64,000 nt of DNA, taken from Rhizobium skierniewicense. GTDB taxonomy: Bacteria > Pseudomonadota > Alphaproteobacteria > Rhizobiales > Rhizobiaceae. The position numbers and the translations under genes were made by a program. Where the stretch lies: positions 310,001-374,000 of the forward strand of contig NZ_JACIDV010000002.1 in assembly GCF_014196515.1 (NCBI RefSeq), given 5' to 3'. Below, one piece after another: positions 3,840-58,490 of this stretch. The notes under the pieces are model-generated. The model searched no databases. It was not told where the DNA came from and worked only from the letters and a program-made list of their open reading frames with translations. Position 1 is the first letter of the stretch. Every line of letters begins with the position of its first letter.

Positions 3840-3916
3840 TATCAGCATCAGGTTTGGATCACGGCTCGCACCGCGTGCCGTGATCTTTCGCATTTGCACG
3901 ACCCCTGGAGGTGAGC

Positions 3917-5121: not shown

Positions 5122-5444
5122 TTGGTGTATTGCGCGCTGATTGCTCCGAGAGTTTGGTGCAGATGCTCGACGCTATCTATTGCTCAAGAAATTGATGAGT
5201 GGCGTCGAGCTGGCCATTCGGTGTTGCTTCCTACGGAACCGCTCAGAAGGGGCTATGGATTGAGTGTATTACGCAAATGAAATTTAATGAAATATCAATA
5301 ACAAAAAAATAATATATCGACGTATTCAAGGCATGAATTGTATTCACGGCAATGTTCCGACAATCCGCGCTTTTGGCTACTACCAAGTCTTGAGTAAAGA
5401 CATACTGCCCTTGCATCGTCCAATATTCACTTTGAGGGACTATT
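5122..5444. other. Gene-free, AT-rich upstream region of MCP 1
   Basis: No coding frame is credible here. A 9-bp inverted repeat (GCTCGACGC at 5165-5173, GCGTCGAGC at 5202-5210) is present, and 5270-5335 is markedly AT-rich, unlike the flanks. The promoter of the downstream chemoreceptor should lie in the AT-rich part, but no clear -35/-10 pair stands out. Confidence 0.5.
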
Positions 5445-7277
5445 ATGAAGCTATCCATTGGTATTGTTCTTGCTGGTCTCTCAGGCGTCATGTTGTTGGT
5501 TGCAGGTGTGCAGGGAATGGCCTCGATTTCCTCCCTCAATCAGATCAGAGGCGGTATCGATACCATCGTGGATAGCCGCGTTCCGTCCTTTATCCTGTTG
5601 GGCAAGATCAATGGGCAACTTGGCGACGTTCGCAACGCCCAAAGTTCGATCGTAACGTCTAAAACCGATAGCTGGCTGCAATTCGAAGGACAAATGCAGG
5701 CCACCCGTGCGGCGCTGGATGCGGATATGCGTACGTATAAGAGTTATCTCGTCGATGAGGCGGACAAAAAGTATTTCGCTTCATTCGATGAAAAATGGAA
5801 ACTGGCAGAGGCACGCTGGAACGACGTGAAGGCGTTGCTGGCGGCTGGAAAGATCGAGGACGCGCGGGCAAGTTTCGTTGGCGAGGCCCTTGCGGCGTAC
5901 GGTGAAGCCAAGGCGGTTTTGCAGTCTGCAGTGGATGATATGGAAATGGATGTCCGGGGCGAGGGTGAAGTCACGGCACAGGCTGCCGCCTCTGCCTCTA
6001 CGCTCAACTATATCTCACTCGGCATTGCGCTTGTCATTGGTGTCGGCGCTGCTCTCTTCGGAAATTTCCATCTTGCCAGACCGTTGGTGCGGATGACCGG
6101 TGTGATGCGTCGTCTTTCGGATGGTGACACGGATATCACCATTCCTGGAAGCGGCAGGAAAGACGAGATCGGTGCGATGGCGGGAGCTGTCGAGGTCTTC
6201 CGTCAGAGTGCTATCGAAAACAAACGTCTGGAAGCGCAGGCGGAAACAAACCGTCAGCAAGCTGAGGTCGAGCGTCTTGCCACGCAGCAAAAAGCTGAGG
6301 CTGATGCAGAGGAAAGACTGCGGATCGCCACATCTGGATTGGCGGATGGCTTGCGCCGCCTGGCTTCCGGCGATCTCGCCTTCCAGATCAATGACGTCTT
6401 CGCGCCGGATTTTGAGCCTTTGCGTCAAGACTTCAACCGCTCGCTCAAGCAACTGGGCGCCACTATGTCGGAAATCGCCCATTCCATTGACGCCATGAAC
6501 AATGGGACTCGCGAAATTGCGGACGGATCGGCTGACCTGTCGAAACGGACGGAACAACAGGCCGCAACCCTTGAGGAAACTGCGGCCGCGCTCGATCAGA
6601 TCACCGTCAATGTCAGCAACTCCACCAAACGTGTGCATGAAGCACGAGGGGCAGCAACCGAGGCGAACCGCGCAGCCAAGGTGTCGGGTGACGTCGTCGC
6701 CACCGCTGTCGATGCGATGCACCGGATAGAGCAATCGTCAGGGCAAATCTCAAGTATCATCGTCGTCATCGATGAGATCGCGTTCCAGACCAACCTTCTT
6801 GCCCTCAACGCCGGTGTTGAGGCCGCTCGCGCGGGCGAAGCTGGCAAGGGCTTTGCGGTTGTGGCCCAGGAGGTGCGTGAACTCGCACAACGGTCTGCCA
6901 AGGCCGCCAAGGAAATTAAGGAATTGATCGGCAAGTCGTCGGTGGAAGTCGAGAACGGTGTCAATCTCGTGCGACAGACCGGCGATGCGTTGAAAACCAT
7001 CGAAAGCCACGTGACCGTCATGAACGAACACATGGGCGCAATTGCCTCGTCCGCTCAGGAACAGGCAACGGGTTTGGCAGAGCTCAACACAGCCGTCAAT
7101 CAGATGGACCAGACCACCCAGCAAAATGCTGCAATGGTGGAAGAGACGACCTCTGCGACATCGGCGCTGGCAGGCGAAAGCGAAAAGTTGCGGACGCTTC
7201 TGCAACAGTTCCAGCTTGCCCAATCGGGGTCGCAGGGTCGTGATCATGGTGTTTATCAGGTGAGGCGCGCTGGCTGA
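5445..7277 (+). CDS. Methyl-accepting chemotaxis protein 1
   Basis: This 610-residue receptor should sit in the inner membrane and signal to CheA/CheW. It has a membrane helix at the N-terminus (residues 3-25), a mostly helical periplasmic domain of about 160 residues resembling four-helix-bundle sensors, a second membrane helix near 188-208, one HAMP domain (about 209-262, RPLVRMTGVMRRLSDGDTD), a second HAMP-like segment (about 295-345) and the signalling domain. The signalling tip AFQTNLLALNAGVEAARAGE and the flanking AVVAQEVRELAQRSA are intact. It lacks the aromatic C-terminal pentapeptide of MCP 3. The ligand cannot be told. GAGGGA precedes ATG 5445. It lies between the atp operon and rnhB. 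Confidence 0.93.
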   Translation: MKLSIGIVLAGLSGVMLLVAGVQGMASISSLNQIRGGIDTIVDSRVPSFILLGKINGQLGDVRNAQSSIVTSKTDSWLQFEGQMQATRAALDADMRTYKSYLVDEADKKYFASFDEKWKLAEARWNDVKALLAAGKIEDARASFVGEALAAYGEAKAVLQSAVDDMEMDVRGEGEVTAQAAASASTLNYISLGIALVIGVGAALFGNFHLARPLVRMTGVMRRLSDGDTDITIPGSGRKDEIGAMAGAVEVFRQSAIENKRLEAQAETNRQQAEVERLATQQKAEADAEERLRIATSGLADGLRRLASGDLAFQINDVFAPDFEPLRQDFNRSLKQLGATMSEIAHSIDAMNNGTREIADGSADLSKRTEQQAATLEETAAALDQITVNVSNSTKRVHEARGAATEANRAAKVSGDVVATAVDAMHRIEQSSGQISSIIVVIDEIAFQTNLLALNAGVEAARAGEAGKGFAVVAQEVRELAQRSAKAAKEIKELIGKSSVEVENGVNLVRQTGDALKTIESHVTVMNEHMGAIASSAQEQATGLAELNTAVNQMDQTTQQNAAMVEETTSATSALAGESEKLRTLLQQFQLAQSGSQGRDHGVYQVRRAG

Positions 7278-7287
7278 TAGACAGCGC

Positions 7288-7941
7288 TCACTCCACGCGC
7301 ATTGGGCTGAAACTCATGCGGTGAAGCGGACAGGCGCCATTGGTCTCGATGGCGCGCAGATGTGCCGGCGTGCCGTATCCCACATGCGCTTCAAAACCAT
7401 AAGCCGGATAGATTGATCCGGCCTTTTCCATCATCCTGTCACGGGTCACCTTCGCGACGATGGAGGCGGCGGCAATCGAAACCGATCGCGCATCGCCCTT
7501 GATCACTGCTTTGCCGAGGCAGGGTATGCCGGGAGGAATATCACGTCCATCGGCGAGCACGAGAGCGGGCGCGGTCTGAAGTCCAAGCACAGCCCGGCGC
7601 ATGGCATCCAGGCTGGCCCTCAGAATGTTCATCCGGTCGATGAGCAGAGGTCCGGATGAGGCGATGGAAACGATGGATGTTTCCAGAATCTTCTCAAACA
7701 GAAACGCGCGACGCGCCTTGGACAGCTTTTTCGAATCGTTTAGCCCATCGGGTATGTTGTCGGGATCGAGAATAACGGCGGCGGCAACGACGGGTCCGGC
7801 CAGCGGGCCGCGCCCAGCTTCATCCGTCCCGGCCACTGGCCACTCACCACGCTGTTTCGCCTCAAGCTCCAGACTAAAATCCGGGCCGGAGTTTACAAAG
7901 TCAAAGAGGGCAGGAGAATCGGATGCTGTGCGTCGTTTCAT
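7288..7941 (-). CDS. rnhB: Ribonuclease HII
   Basis: RNase HII removes ribonucleotides from DNA and RNA in RNA-DNA hybrids. The signature [21 protein letters not shown] near residues 38-58 contains the Asp-Glu metal ligands, and LADGRDIPP and [14 protein letters not shown] give further family motifs. ATG 7941 gives 217 residues, near the usual family length; an in-frame TTG at 7977 would add 12 residues without better conservation. The gene is convergent with MCP 1, leaving 10 nt between stops. The 5' side is followed by the small disrupted gene and the radical SAM gene on the same strand. Confidence 0.95.
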
Positions 7942-8034
7942 TGGCGGAAACTGACACAGGCAACCGATCTCCTGCAAGCCCCCGGTCGCAGGGTGTGCAG
8001 CAACCCACGGGGCGGAGGGGTGCTGGCTGAGGTC

Positions 8035-8251: not shown

Positions 8252-9409
8252 TCACAGCAGCGACAATTGCACGCCTGCACCTCCAGGCGCGATAAACAGA
8301 TCGTCGCGAAGATGAAGGCCTCGGCGGATGAGCCCAAGCCTCTTTGTCGTCATTTCGAAACGGCGACCAATTTGCCAGGCATACGGACCGGCGCCCTTCA
8401 TCCGTTTGCCGAATTCCGCGTCATAATCCTTGCCGTCGCGCATGGAGCGCACCAGGGACATAACGTGCTGGTAGCGATGCGGATAGTTGCGCAGCAGCCA
8501 TTCGCGAAACAGGGGGCTGACCTCCAGCGGCAGCCGCAGCAATACGTACGACGCCTCCGTTGCTCCCGCCGCCTTTCCAGCTTCCAGCACCCGTTCGATT
8601 TCGTGATCGTTCAACGCTGGAATGACCGGCGCCATCATGACAGCGGTCGGTATTCCCGCATCCGTCAGCGTCTTGATCGCTTCCAGCCGCTTGGTGGGCG
8701 TAGAGGCACGAGGCTCCATACTGCGGGCAAGCTTGCGGTCCAGCGTCGTTACGGAAATGCCGACCTTCACCAGCCCTTTTGCAGCCATCGGGGCAAGGAT
8801 ATCGATATCGCGTGTAATAAGGCCGGATTTAGTGACAATGGCGACCGGATGATCAGCCTTTGCCAACACCTCGAGGATCTGCCGCATGATGCGCCATTCC
8901 CGCTCGATGGGCTGGTAAGGATCGGTGTTGGTGCCGATGGCAATGACACGCGCCTTGTATCCCGGTTTGGCAAGTTCCCGTTCCAGAAGCTTTGCGGCAT
9001 CCGGTTTGGCAAACAGCTTGGCCTCGAAATCCAGTCCAGCTGACAGGCCCATATAGCTGTGACTGGGTCTTGCAAAACAATAGATGCAGCCATGTTCGCA
9101 CCCTCGATAGGGATTGATAGACCGGTCGAAGGGAATGTCCGGCGAATCATTGCGGGTAATGATCGTGCGCGGTTTCTCCACCTGCACCTCAGTGCGAAAC
9201 TCGGGCAGATCCTCTATGATCTGCCAGCCATCATCGACGGCTTCATGCTGAAGGGTCTCGAAACGCCCACCGGGATTGATGCCCGCTCCACGCCCGCGCC
9301 GACGATCGATCTCGATCCGAAGACCGGATGCATCGGCCAGCGCATTGGCAATATCTGGCGTATGACCCGGCTGGAATGCAGCCTGCCCGGAAAGCACATG
9401 TTGTCTCAT
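8252..9409 (-). CDS. Radical SAM protein, SplB-like (PA0069 family)
   Basis: The 385-residue protein carries a CX3CX2C cluster in RGCEHGCIYCFARPSH, which binds the 4Fe-4S cluster that splits S-adenosylmethionine. Its overall pattern, including GTNTDPYQPIEREWRIMRQ and VGISVTTLDRKLARSMEPR, matches the COG1533 group related to spore photoproduct lyase, often labelled DNA repair photolyase; the true reaction is not known. ATG 9409 is preferred over ATG 9430 because AGGAG lies 7 nt before it. A perfect GAAC-N7-GAAC sequence lies 64 nt upstream, which suggests SOS control. The disrupted small gene and rnhB follow on the same strand. Confidence 0.88.
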   Translation of the reverse strand: MRQHVLSGQAAFQPGHTPDIANALADASGLRIEIDRRRGRGAGINPGGRFETLQHEAVDDGWQIIEDLPEFRTEVQVEKPRTIITRNDSPDIPFDRSINPYRGCEHGCIYCFARPSHSYMGLSAGLDFEAKLFAKPDAAKLLERELAKPGYKARVIAIGTNTDPYQPIEREWRIMRQILEVLAKADHPVAIVTKSGLITRDIDILAPMAAKGLVKVGISVTTLDRKLARSMEPRASTPTKRLEAIKTLTDAGIPTAVMMAPVIPALNDHEIERVLEAGKAAGATEASYVLLRLPLEVSPLFREWLLRNYPHRYQHVMSLVRSMRDGKDYDAEFGKRMKGAGPYAWQIGRRFEMTTKRLGLIRRGLHLRDDLFIAPGGAGVQLSLL

Positions 9410-9472
9410 CTGGATGCTCCTGACCGGCATGAACCGGCTGTGTGGATGTCTCGATTCTTAAATTAAAAATGA

Positions 9473-9487
9473 GAACAAGACAAGAAC
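9473..9487 (-). promoter_or_regulatory. LexA-type SOS box upstream of the radical SAM gene
   Basis: The + strand reads GAACAAGACAAGAAC, exactly GAAC-N7-GAAC; read on the minus strand it is GTTC-N7-GTTC, the box bound by alphaproteobacterial LexA. It overlaps a possible -35 (TTGTCT) of the minus-strand gene, with TAAGAA 17 nt further on. The divergent glycosyltransferase-like gene starts 112 nt away on the other side. Confidence 0.7.
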
Positions 9488-9599
9488 AAAATGCAAAAAC
9501 ACGCGATAGCTATTTCTTTTGCATTGCGGTAGGAATCCCATCGATGAAATATTGTAGCGGCGCGGGTTTTTGTGTTTATTGCCCCCTCGGGGATCACAT

Positions 9600-10118
9600 A
9601 TGTTGACAGTCATCATGGAATGCCGGGATCAGGAGCCTGAGCTTGCTCACACTCTCGCGACGCTCGTCTCGGGCGCGGTTGAGGGGCTGGTCAGTGACGT
9701 CATCATATTAGATCACGCCTCCAGCGACGGATCGTCGCGTGTGGCCGAGGCCGCAGGCTGCCGCTTTCATACGGAATGGGACATCAAGGATATCATTGCC
9801 TCGGCGCGGGGCGAGTGGATTTTGATGATGGAGCCGGGTAGCCGCCCGCAAAGCGGCTGGATCGCCGATGTCAGCGAATACATGGCGCTGAGCAAGCTGC
9901 CTGCGCGCTTTGCGCCTTCGCGTCATTACCGCCCATCCCTTTTGTCGCGCTTCATCCAGCGCAGACCGCCGCTGGAATATGGCCTGTTGTTGGGGAAGCC
10001 CGAAGCACTGTCGATTGCCAAGTCCGGCATGCGGCTCGACCATTTCCCCAAATCACAGAAAACCCGTCGCCTCAGCGCCGAACTGATTCCCTCATGGGTG
10101 CTGCGCTCCGCCCGGTAG
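9600..10118 (+). CDS. Glycosyltransferase family 2-like protein
   Basis: The 172-residue protein opens with LTVIMECRDQEPELAHTLATL and continues with VIILDHASSDGSSRVAEAAG and ARGEWILMMEPGSRP, the fold-start pattern of GT-A glycosyltransferases (nucleotide-binding strand, then an Asp-rich segment). It is shorter than a full GT2 enzyme and lacks an evident acceptor domain or membrane helix, so enzyme activity is unproven. ATG 9600 follows GGGGA in a clear ribosome site. It is convergent with moaB, with only 6 nt between the stops. No biosynthetic cluster surrounds it. Its target sugar or acceptor cannot be inferred. Confidence 0.65.
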   Translation: MLTVIMECRDQEPELAHTLATLVSGAVEGLVSDVIILDHASSDGSSRVAEAAGCRFHTEWDIKDIIASARGEWILMMEPGSRPQSGWIADVSEYMALSKLPARFAPSRHYRPSLLSRFIQRRPPLEYGLLLGKPEALSIAKSGMRLDHFPKSQKTRRLSAELIPSWVLRSAR

Positions 10119-55881: not shown

Positions 55882-56510
55882 GGAACTCTCCCTTTTATGT
55901 CTTTTGAGGTTTGGCCTCTGAAACCGCGCGCGTCAATGGCATCCGCGATGGCATCGGCGTCCTTCAACGTCATAATGATGAGCGGGACCAGAATCGTATG
56001 CAGCCTGACCTTCATTCCGCGCGCGCGATGGGCATCGCGCAGCGTCTCGTATCGATTGATGACGTCCGGCACAAAACGCACGACGAGCCCAACGGCCAAG
56101 CCCACATCGGCGGCATTGGCAACGCCGATTTTTTCCAGTGGACGAAGCGCGAAGGTGATTTCATCCATGAACTGCGAGATGCTGACGCTCGCGGTTATAG
56201 CCGTTGCCAGCACCGTCAACGCCGTCAACCGCAGGAGGGCAATCGCTGCATCCAGCGCCGACATGAACAGGAAACTGAACAGCGCGATCACGGCAATCGT
56301 CAGCAAAACGGGCCGCAACCGTGCTACGGTTTCCTGAAACCCCAAATGCGCCTGCCATAGCACCACCGCCGCCATGAGAACCGCTGAGGAGAGGATGACT
56401 GGATCACGCGTCAGAAACAGGCCGATGCTGAAGAGCGCAAGGCCGAGTAGCTTGATGCGTGGCGAGATCCGGTAGAGCCAGCCGGTTCCTTCGACGTGGA
56501 GGCTTTTCAT
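55878..56510 (-). CDS. bioN: Energy-coupling factor transmembrane protein BioN
   Basis: BioN is the T-component that links BioY to the ATPase BioM. The 210-residue protein has four to five membrane helices and the two Ala-Arg-Gly coupling motifs of EcfT proteins, in AHRARGMKVRLHTI near residue 164 and DAIDARGFRG near 197. Its ATG overlaps the bioM stop and its TGA overlaps the bioY start, both as ATGA. Length and helices are normal for BioN. Confidence 0.93.
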   Translation of the reverse strand: MKSLHVEGTGWLYRISPRIKLLGLALFSIGLFLTRDPVILSSAVLMAAVVLWQAHLGFQETVARLRPVLLTIAVIALFSFLFMSALDAAIALLRLTALTVLATAITASVSISQFMDEITFALRPLEKIGVANAADVGLAVGLVVRFVPDVINRYETLRDAHRARGMKVRLHTILVPLIIMTLKDADAIADAIDARGFRGQTSKDIKGRVP

Positions 56511-57187
56511 GTGAGCGCAAGCTTCCGGTAAAGCTGAATGGCGTCGGTGGGAGAGGTATCGGCGTGCAGTCTGTTTCGATGAAACACAAGCACGCGGTCG
56601 AAAGTCTCCAAGAGCGGCAGGTCGTGGGTAATGACGATCAGATCCTGTTCCAGCGCCACCATCGTCCGCTCAACCAGCGCGCGGTTCTTTAGGTCCAGTT
56701 GGTTCGTCGGCTCGTCCATGATGAGGATTTTCGGACGTGTGATGGTCAGCGCCGCCAAAGCGGAGAGCTGCAATTCCCCACCAGATAGTTCGTGTGCGCG
56801 ACGCTGGCTTAGATGCGGGATATCAAAACGCTGCAAAATGGCATCCACCGCCTCATCGATGGTCGAGCTCTTCAGTCCCTTGTTTTTCAATCCAAAAGCG
56901 ATGTCGTCACGAATAATCGGCAGGATGATCTGGTTTTGCGGGTTCTGGAAAATGAAGCCAACGTCCTTCAAGACCTCGGATGCGTCTTTGACCGTATCCA
57001 GCCCGTTGACGATGACACGGCCGCTGGTCGGCTTCGTCAGTCCGTTGATCATCCGCGCAAAGGTCGTCTTGCCGGACCCGTTGAGGCCGATCACGCCGAT
57101 GCGTCGTTCGGTCAGCGCAAGCGTCAGCGGCTCTACTGCCGCTCTGCCCTCGAAGGCTACGCCTGCTTCGTCAAAACGAATATCCAA
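56507..57187 (-). CDS. bioM: Biotin transport ATPase BioM
   Basis: BioM is the ATP-binding subunit of the biotin ECF transporter. Walker A is IGVIGLNGSGKTTFARMING, the signature is HELSGGELQLSALAAL and Walker B is KILIMDEPTNQLDLK, followed by the switch His in VITHDLPLLE. TTG 57187 is taken as the start because GGGGA lies 8 nt before it and it gives 226 residues; ATG 57265 has no ribosome site and would put a LexA-type box inside the gene. A BioR-like sequence lies at 57213-57222. Confidence 0.92.
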   Translation of the reverse strand: MDIRFDEAGVAFEGRAAVEPLTLALTERRIGVIGLNGSGKTTFARMINGLTKPTSGRVIVNGLDTVKDASEVLKDVGFIFQNPQNQIILPIIRDDIAFGLKNKGLKSSTIDEAVDAILQRFDIPHLSQRRAHELSGGELQLSALAALTITRPKILIMDEPTNQLDLKNRALVERTMVALEQDLIVITHDLPLLETFDRVLVFHRNRLHADTSPTDAIQLYRKLALT

Positions 57188-57212
57188 CTGCTGGTCCCCG
57201 AAATATGTCCCG

Positions 57213-57222
57213 GTTTCTATAA
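57213..57222. promoter_or_regulatory. Possible BioR operator upstream of bioMNY
   Basis: GTTTCTATAA differs at two positions from the TTATCTATAA-type palindrome bound by BioR, the biotin repressor of many alphaproteobacteria. It lies 26 nt before the chosen bioM start. Confidence 0.35.
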
Positions 57223-57248
57223 ACGGATGGGAGGGCAAACGAAACAAG

Positions 57249-57263
57249 GAACAAAAAAAGAAC
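57249..57263 (+). promoter_or_regulatory. LexA-type SOS box upstream of the YcaQ-like gene
   Basis: The sequence GAACAAAAAAAGAAC is exactly GAAC-N7-GAAC. It ends 36 nt before the ATG of the DNA glycosylase gene; TTGATT starts 2 nt after it and could be a -35. Confidence 0.65.
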
Positions 57264-57299
57264 ATTGATTTTTAAGGGATGTGACCATACGCTTTTGCC

Positions 57300-58490
57300 A
57301 TGGTGATCAGGATTTCGAACGAAGCAGCAAGACGTATTTTTCTGGCGCGACAGGGGCTATCCGCATCGCCCAGCCGCGCCATGGGCAAGGACGACTTGCT
57401 GAAACTCATCACCGATCTCGGCTTTGTGCAACTCGACAGCATCGCCACCGTGGAGCGGGCGCATCACCAGATCATTTTTTCCCGCAATCAGACCTACAAG
57501 CGTCACCATCTGACAGAACTGCTGGAGAAAGACCGGGCGCTGTTCGAACACTGGACGCATGACGCCTCGATCCTGCCGGCGACCTTCTACCCCTATTGGA
57601 AACACCGCTTCCGCCGCCGTGAGCCGATCATTCAGGAACGCTGGCGTAACTGGCACGGGGAGGGGTTCGATTCGGCCTTCGAGGAAACCTATCGTCGCAT
57701 CGCCGAAAACGGCCCCACCATGTCACGCGACATGAAAGCGCAGGGGCATCAATCCGGCGGCTGGTGGAACTGGCATCCATCGAAAACGGCACTGGAATAT
57801 CTGTGGCACACCGGCAAGCTGGCCGTGGCTGGCCGCGTCAATTTCCAGAAGGTCTATGATCTCGCGGAACGGGTCATTCCACCTGTGCATCACGACCTTG
57901 AAGTGCCTCACCACGAATTCCTGGACTGGGCCTGCCGGGAAGCGCTGACGCGGCTCGGTTTTGCCACCTCGGGCGAGCTTGCCGCCTTTTTCGATATCGT
58001 CACGCCGCAGGAAGCGCGGGCATGGGTGACAGATCATCGCGACGAACTCTGCGAGGTCTCGCTCGCTTCCTGCGACGGGGAAAAGGCGCGCGTTTCCTAT
58101 GCCTTCGAAGGGTTTGCCGGGGAGACGGACGCCAATATCGAGGCTCCCAACCGCATCCGTGTCCTCAGCCCGTTTGATCCGCTTCTGCGCAACCGCGCCC
58201 GCACGGAACGCTTGTTTGGCTTTTACTACCGTATCGAGGTTTTCGTGCCGGAGCCGAAACGGCAATACGGCTACTACGTCTTCCCGCTTCTGGAAGCGGA
58301 TCGCCTCATCGGCCGCATCGACATGAAGGCGGAGCGTAAGGGCGGTAGGCTGGATGTGAAGCGCCTTTGGCTTGAAAAGGGCGTGCTCGCGACGTCGGGA
58401 CGTCTGGCAAAGCTGGATGCCGAGTTGAACCGCCTTGCTAAGTTCACGGGTGTGGAAACCGTTCGGTATCTGGATGGCTGGCTGGGGTAG
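57300..58490 (+). CDS. YcaQ-like DNA glycosylase (HTH_42 family)
   Basis: The 396-residue protein belongs to the winged-helix family of AlkZ and YcaQ (AlkX), which remove alkylated bases and open some interstrand crosslinks. The catalytic QxD motif of the YcaQ branch is seen in GFVQLDSIATVERAHHQIIF near residue 42. Further blocks are LFEHWTHDASILPATFYPYW, LLRNRARTERLFGFYYRIEV and YGYYVFPLLEADRLIGRIDM. ATG 57300 has no ribosome site, so the mRNA may be leaderless. A perfect LexA-type box lies just upstream, which fits a repair role. Confidence 0.9.
   Translation: MVIRISNEAARRIFLARQGLSASPSRAMGKDDLLKLITDLGFVQLDSIATVERAHHQIIFSRNQTYKRHHLTELLEKDRALFEHWTHDASILPATFYPYWKHRFRRREPIIQERWRNWHGEGFDSAFEETYRRIAENGPTMSRDMKAQGHQSGGWWNWHPSKTALEYLWHTGKLAVAGRVNFQKVYDLAERVIPPVHHDLEVPHHEFLDWACREALTRLGFATSGELAAFFDIVTPQEARAWVTDHRDELCEVSLASCDGEKARVSYAFEGFAGETDANIEAPNRIRVLSPFDPLLRNRARTERLFGFYYRIEVFVPEPKRQYGYYVFPLLEADRLIGRIDMKAERKGGRLDVKRLWLEKGVLATSGRLAKLDAELNRLAKFTGVETVRYLDGWLG

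Follow-up and report, generated by a model that had tools for sequence, protein, structure and literature searches.

A gene named splB was predicted to be under SOS control in alpha- and beta-proteobacteria by Sanchez-Alberola et al. (2012; PMC3323433). The passages of that paper available to us state that the trait was not observed in the Gammaproteobacteria, read it as photoreactivation and treat the protein as a photolyase. Excerpts of other work describe COG1533 as SOS controlled in Bacteroidetes (PMC8565304), place "a radical SAM protein" in the Gram-positive core SOS regulon and also in Balneolaeota (PMC7739468), and use gene context to tie SplB-like proteins to further parts of the SOS response (PMC3765255). 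In Streptomyces venezuelae, a radical-SAM gene whose subfamily is not stated in the excerpted text rose 19.97-fold with mitomycin C and carried a LexA ChIP-seq peak (PMC9380542). The available main text of a 2025 paper on the Caulobacter SOS response has no mention of splB, radical SAM, photolyase or photoproduct (PMC12700426). Our literature search found nothing on the PA0069 family of radical SAM proteins, and nothing joining PA0069 or Rv2578c to LexA. The two genes PA0069 and Rv2578c are listed among the SOS genes of Pseudomonas aeruginosa and Mycobacterium tuberculosis.

Here we describe a radical-SAM gene that is preceded by an exact LexA box in a 64,000-nucleotide stretch of Rhizobium skierniewicense DNA, the whole of which we call the window. 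The gene is presumably the same as the splB of PMC3323433 and, given the SOS control predicted there, our finding is true but largely known. Set against the literature as it was available to us, what is new is the class-wide extent of the box, its geometry relative to the -35 element and the failure of the protein to qualify as a spore photoproduct lyase (SPL); LexA control of such genes was known.

Results

The box, GAACAAGACAAGAAC, lies at positions 9473-9487 (+) of the window. A first-pass annotation had described it as fitting GAAC-N7-GAAC without a mismatch, and a pattern scan of the window bore this out; read on the (-) strand, toward the radical-SAM gene, it is GTTC-TTGTCTT-GTTC. It had also been placed in an intergenic gap facing that gene, and this position holds, between the radical-SAM gene (8252-9430 on the (-) strand, with a likely start at 9409 taken from the annotated S. 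meliloti CDS) and a divergent gene that starts at about 9570-9600 (+).

Conservation before orthologues elsewhere had been proposed as a check, and the box proved to be kept there. Our first set consisted of the best 80 of at least 587 confirmed loci found with the radical-SAM protein, from Agrobacterium, Rhizobium, Neorhizobium, Ensifer, Shinella, Brucella, Mesorhizobium, Aurantimonas and other genera; the box was sought from 400 bases before to 60 bases after the start of the protein match. All 80 loci have the exact box and none has the reversed pattern. Across this set, boxes cluster at the gene start: 82 fall in the surrounding 36.8 kb, and the other 606.5 kb have 7. A second set took one locus from each of 60 families (all 19 genomes outside the genus that one search had matched, one of the same genus and one from each of 40 families), and the exact box was present in 56 of them; the reversed control matched three, all overlapping a true box. 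Finally, 29 plus 29 further alphaproteobacterial loci from two genome searches gave the exact box in 57 of 58 cases and the E. coli-type box in none. In one search, 69 of 167 matched genomes (the window's own excluded) were looked at. Together, the second and third sets hold the exact box in 113 of 118 further alphaproteobacterial loci, some of whose genomes may share species with the 80-locus set; all these loci are kin by descent, so the counts are not independent trials.

The five loci without an exact box (L181, L189, L207, L146 and L208) all come from genomes that have lexA. L181, L189 and L207 have a one-mismatch box that keeps the internal TTG; in L146 and L208 the one-mismatch words are all of a different form. 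One genome, G166, has the box but yields no lexA to the lexA model, in an assembly that is 93% complete. This conservation strongly supports the earlier prediction that LexA controls the radical-SAM gene, and we conclude that 9473-9487 is a real, strongly conserved predicted LexA site on the radical-SAM promoter.

The genome's own lexA (G000:C12) scores 177.6 bits against a cut-off of 110.95 and has an exact box upstream, GTTCCATATGTGTTC. The stretch examined at recA contains no exact box; by eye, it shows a one-mismatch word, GTACTTTATTTGTTC. Elsewhere in the same genome (L239, C18:44291-44632) is a gene weakly like the C-terminal part of LexA, at 62.3 bits and thus below the cut-off; an exact box, GTTCACTATTTGTTC, precedes the match by 86-100 bases. 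The gene is possibly a second SOS-linked repressor or a UmuD-like gene.

The box also coincides with a predicted promoter. On the (-) strand, a -35 element, TTGTCT (9478-9483), lies inside the box and is followed after 17 bases by a -10 element, TAAGAA (9455-9460). The -10 is weak, its sixth base being A rather than T, and a generic promoter scan of the window did not call a radical-SAM promoter at the box. The predicted transcription start is near 9448, with the likely ATG at 9409. The class-wide alignment points to the same arrangement: in a box-aligned profile of 112 loci, conservation is confined to the box and its edges (offsets -3 to -1 and 15-19), with a weak signal at offsets 27, 28 and 32, all other columns being near zero bits. 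Geometry was counted in the 55 one-per-family loci with a forward box; in the 56th, L177, the box is reversed. TTG occupies box offsets 4-6 in 42 of the 55, and TANNNT begins at offset 27 in 24, with 36 matches at 26-28; in 2000 composition shuffles, the count of TANNNT never exceeded 7 at any offset. The predicted -35 (TTGNNN, offsets 4-9), a 17-base spacer and the predicted -10 (27-32) thus tend to keep constant positions with respect to the box. Overlap of box and promoter, a feature expected of an alphaproteobacterial LexA operator, is found here both in the sequence and in the class-wide profile, for a promoter that is itself predicted.

In 21 of the same 55 loci an ATG begins at offset 39, and 33 ATG matches fall at offsets 38-40 (L149-L208), about six bases past the -10. 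With the ATG so placed, the transcript should start near it and the mRNA would be leaderless, so that the class-wide pattern hints at a leaderless mRNA for the radical-SAM gene. In the window and in S. meliloti, the gene starts further downstream than offsets 38-40.

Outside the Alphaproteobacteria the site takes another form. We read the upstream DNA of 40 of the 54 matched non-alphaproteobacterial genomes: 27 have an exact E. coli-type box, CTGT-N8-ACAG, whereas neither its reversal nor the alphaproteobacterial box occurs in any of the 40. With one mismatch allowed, CTGT-N8-ACAG is found in 30 and its reversal in four. Many of these boxes come close to a perfect palindrome, for example TACTGTATATATGTACAGTA, and are followed shortly by an ATG. 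Among the 13 loci without an exact E. coli-type box, 11 come from genomes with no lexA or with a best lexA piece below 200 bits (in one, G389, lexA is split into two pieces), as against none of nine box-holders checked; this contrast is valid among the non-alphaproteobacteria only, because alphaproteobacterial lexA genes also score below 200 bits. One of the 13, L242, has TTAG-N6-TACTAA upstream, which matches the Xanthomonas LexA motif. The site switches with LexA specificity and behaves as a LexA target should. Four non-alphaproteobacterial loci with no LexA box (L245, L249, L254 and L255) have in common, by eye, a TGAGAC about 25 bases before the start region; this may mark another promoter, used where lexA is divergent.

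What does the gene encode? Its product, P0001, matches the PA0069-family model NF033668 over the whole profile (positions 1-348 of 348) at 570.8 bits, against a cut-off of 360, and also matches PF04055. The next model is NF038135, the Rv2578c family (236 bits, residues 87-328), and TIGR04470, radical SAM mobile pair protein B, reaches 100 bits over residues 102-283. The first-pass annotation had called the protein SplB-like. This stands at the level of the superfamily and fails for SPL itself: P0001 scores 13.7 bits with the SPL model TIGR04070 (cut-off 400) and 11.4 bits with the other, TIGR03886 (cut-off 437.55), both under the 20.9 bits of MoaA. The cysteines agree with this. We compared 137 sequences, namely P0001, the proteins of 58 of 58 further loci and 78 of the first 80, two having been dropped as pieces of at most 350 residues. 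The CxxxCxxC cluster motif (C111, C115 and C118) is present in 137 of 137, of which the 58 had been selected with a pattern that itself includes the motif, and no other column among the 137 reaches 30% cysteine. SPL requires a further cysteine as hydrogen donor. Because the SPL models fail and this cysteine has no counterpart, the name SplB is a superfamily label rather than an identity.

Structural comparison gave little more. A search of PDB sequences with the single protein returned none at E <= 0.1, and a profile search (E <= 1) returned five weak matches, at E 0.12-0.44, none of them named as an SPL. A predicted structure model is poor (mean pLDDT 56.7, pTM 0.59) and was given no weight. 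Alignment A1 consists of 42 sequences, P0001 and 41 from the 80-locus set. PADLOC matched no family at E <= 0.001. A phage collection gave 11 records with distant partial matches, none covering 80% of the query, and a plasmid collection gave 76, of which 26 cover 80%; among the best 12 of the 76, most are large secondary replicons or chromosomes, from Shinella, Sinorhizobium, Methylobacterium, Azospirillum and Paracoccus.

The proposal that P0001 is nevertheless a true SPL, so that the SOS response would induce direct reversal of a UV lesion, draws on the common superfamily, on COG1533-type naming, on SOS control and on the published reading in the available text of PMC3323433. The model scores, the conservation of the three cluster cysteines alone and the lack of an SPL among the five PDB profile matches all tell against it, and we consider it unlikely. 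P0001 is better described as a PA0069-family radical SAM protein.

A second question is which gene the box serves. The divergent gene (9600-10118 (+), start at about 9570-9600) is glycosyltransferase-like: it weakly matches NF010496, at 19.4 bits, and the S. meliloti gene at the same place is annotated as a glycosyltransferase. It could in principle be the target in place of the radical-SAM gene, for it is divergent in 77 of the 80 loci and its possible starts are some 80-115 bases from the box. Yet the -35/-10 geometry aims at the radical-SAM gene; the divergent gene is found in only 35 of 58 alphaproteobacterial loci, while 57 of 58 have the box; and outside the class, where a LexA box accompanies the radical-SAM gene, tblastn (E <= 0.01, about 2.5 kb) found the radical-SAM gene in all of 10 loci and the divergent gene in none. 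It is thus not likely to be the target of the box, and we regard this explanation as very improbable.

On the other side lies rnhB, encoding RNase HII (7288-7977 (-); PF01351, 132 bits), downstream of the radical-SAM gene on the same strand. The two genes keep this arrangement in 80 of 80 loci, with gaps of about 100 bases to more than 1 kb, and 46 of 58 alphaproteobacterial loci have rnhB no more than 1.5 kb away. One might therefore suppose that rnhB is the SOS-relevant gene and the radical-SAM gene its passenger. In the same 10 non-alphaproteobacterial loci, however, rnhB was matched in none, and no neighbour was common to more than two of them; since 27 of 40 loci outside the class still have an exact LexA box before the radical-SAM gene, rnhB is not needed for the box. 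Nor does GAAC-N7-GAAC occur in the gap before rnhB in any of the 80 loci. We hold a primary role for rnhB to be as improbable as one for the divergent gene. The radical-SAM gene is, on the sequences compared, the constant partner of the LexA box, and each of these three alternatives (SPL, the divergent gene and rnhB) was set aside after testing.

The first-pass annotation had further suggested a single unit with rnhB and a small gene. For rnhB this is plausible within the Alphaproteobacteria, given the counts above, and it is possibly cotranscribed with the radical-SAM gene. The small gene, in contrast, did not survive: the open reading frame between the radical-SAM gene and rnhB has no ATG, GTG or TTG near the start of its frame, its peptide has matches in only 3 of 80 relatives, and we dropped it as a conserved gene.

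Sinorhizobium meliloti Ak57 offers an annotated counterpart of the locus (L332), in which the box, at 3898-3912, lies upstream of LZK74_20405, annotated as a PA0069 family radical SAM protein. In the same record, no rnhB is listed between the radical-SAM and ATP synthase genes (5134-7276), where there is an ISAs1 transposase; the gene table is incomplete, and rnhB may be unlisted or broken in this strain.

The number of boxes is uninformative in itself. The annotation had expected about two exact words by chance in 64 kb, in agreement with the 2.15 +/- 1.42 given by shuffles. The window has five, a number reached in 8 of 100 shuffles, and the whole genome has 153 GAAC-N7-GAAC words against 113 of the reversed pattern, so that the count alone is no evidence for the box. 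That the box is simply one of these many words, intergenic by accident, has only such counts in its favor and can be dismissed as next to impossible, since on our reading it is refuted by the exact box upstream of orthologues in both the first and the further sets, by flanks that carry little information class-wide and by the change of LexA motif type outside the Alphaproteobacteria.

Three of the window's five words (39597, 41061 and 48786) fall within long open reading frames. The remaining one besides our box, GAACAAAAAAAGAAC, at 57249-57263, is again an exact GAAC-N7-GAAC and stands 36 bases before a gene for an AlkZ-like (YcaQ-type) DNA glycosylase (57300-58490 (+); PF06224, 231 bits). 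The annotation's observation that both intergenic boxes face genes of DNA-repair type is therefore correct, with one qualification: the longest open reading frame of a divergent ABC-transporter gene, 56507-57265, would span this box, which counts as intergenic only when a later start is assumed for the transporter gene. All 30 same-genus loci compared, the window's own included, have the second box in exact form (L290 with an N in the spacer), and so does L321, the only one counted of 7-8 further same-genus matches outside the 30, for a total of 31 of 31 examined. GAAC-N7-GAAC is absent upstream of all nine more distant AlkZ-like homologues. This looks like a genus-level recruitment of the AlkZ-like gene into predicted SOS control. 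The one paper that our search found on AlkZ glycosylase with LexA reports, in its available text, that E. coli ycaQ expression is unchanged by mechlorethamine, a crosslinker (PMC7367128).

Discussion

These comparisons lead us to propose that the box is very probably the operator of an SOS promoter for the PA0069-family radical-SAM gene, repressed by LexA until damage occurs. LexA dimers would bind GTTC-N7-GTTC and keep RNA polymerase off the radical-SAM promoter; with the -35 inside the box and the -10 only 17 bases on, bound LexA would exclude the polymerase. DNA damage would then cause RecA-stimulated self-cleavage of LexA and free the promoter. The PA0069-family enzyme would be made, and RNase HII might be carried along as a downstream passenger. 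More speculatively, the enzyme may act on damaged nucleic acid or nucleotides by means of a 5'-deoxyadenosyl radical, in a reaction other than that of SPL. A repair function of the radical-SAM protein is putative.

What began as a single motif match has become a predicted LexA promoter that is strikingly consistent in the Alphaproteobacteria and is replaced by another LexA motif elsewhere in the phylum. The ground for the photolyase name is correspondingly weakened: the statement that "photoreactivation is under SOS regulation" depends on a name that the sequence tests made here do not bear out. What remains is a conserved, putative SOS enzyme, for whose family, PA0069, we found no reaction. 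A broader reading, which we advance tentatively and hold to be plausible rather than probable, is that the PA0069 family could be an unrecognized, widespread SOS enzyme of Pseudomonadota with a radical-SAM DNA-repair (or nucleotide-cleaning) reaction unlike that of SPL. LexA control would have persisted, or been restored, as the specificity of LexA changed, and the damage concerned would thus be of a kind general to the SOS response and not an adaptation to soil UV. The second box, before the AlkZ-like gene, may be a fresher lead than the radical-SAM box.

How, then, does P0001 relate to described systems? With SPL it has in common the radical-SAM superfamily and the CxxxCxxC motif, but it is without a conserved fourth cysteine. 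The Rv2578c family provides the nearest sister model, but P0001 remains below its cut-off of 430 bits; the Gram-positive SOS gene of PMC7739468 is described in the available text just as a radical SAM protein. From mobile pair protein B it differs in scoring far under the cut-off of 410 and, unlike a mobile pair, its gene has a conserved neighborhood in the 80-locus set. The closest parallel is the LexA-regulated splB of PMC3323433, which, as described in the available passages, is alike in having a LexA box before a gene of that name in Alphaproteobacteria; at the present locus, the family fails the SPL tests, and the box, which overlaps the predicted -35, is present in nearly every alphaproteobacterial locus examined.
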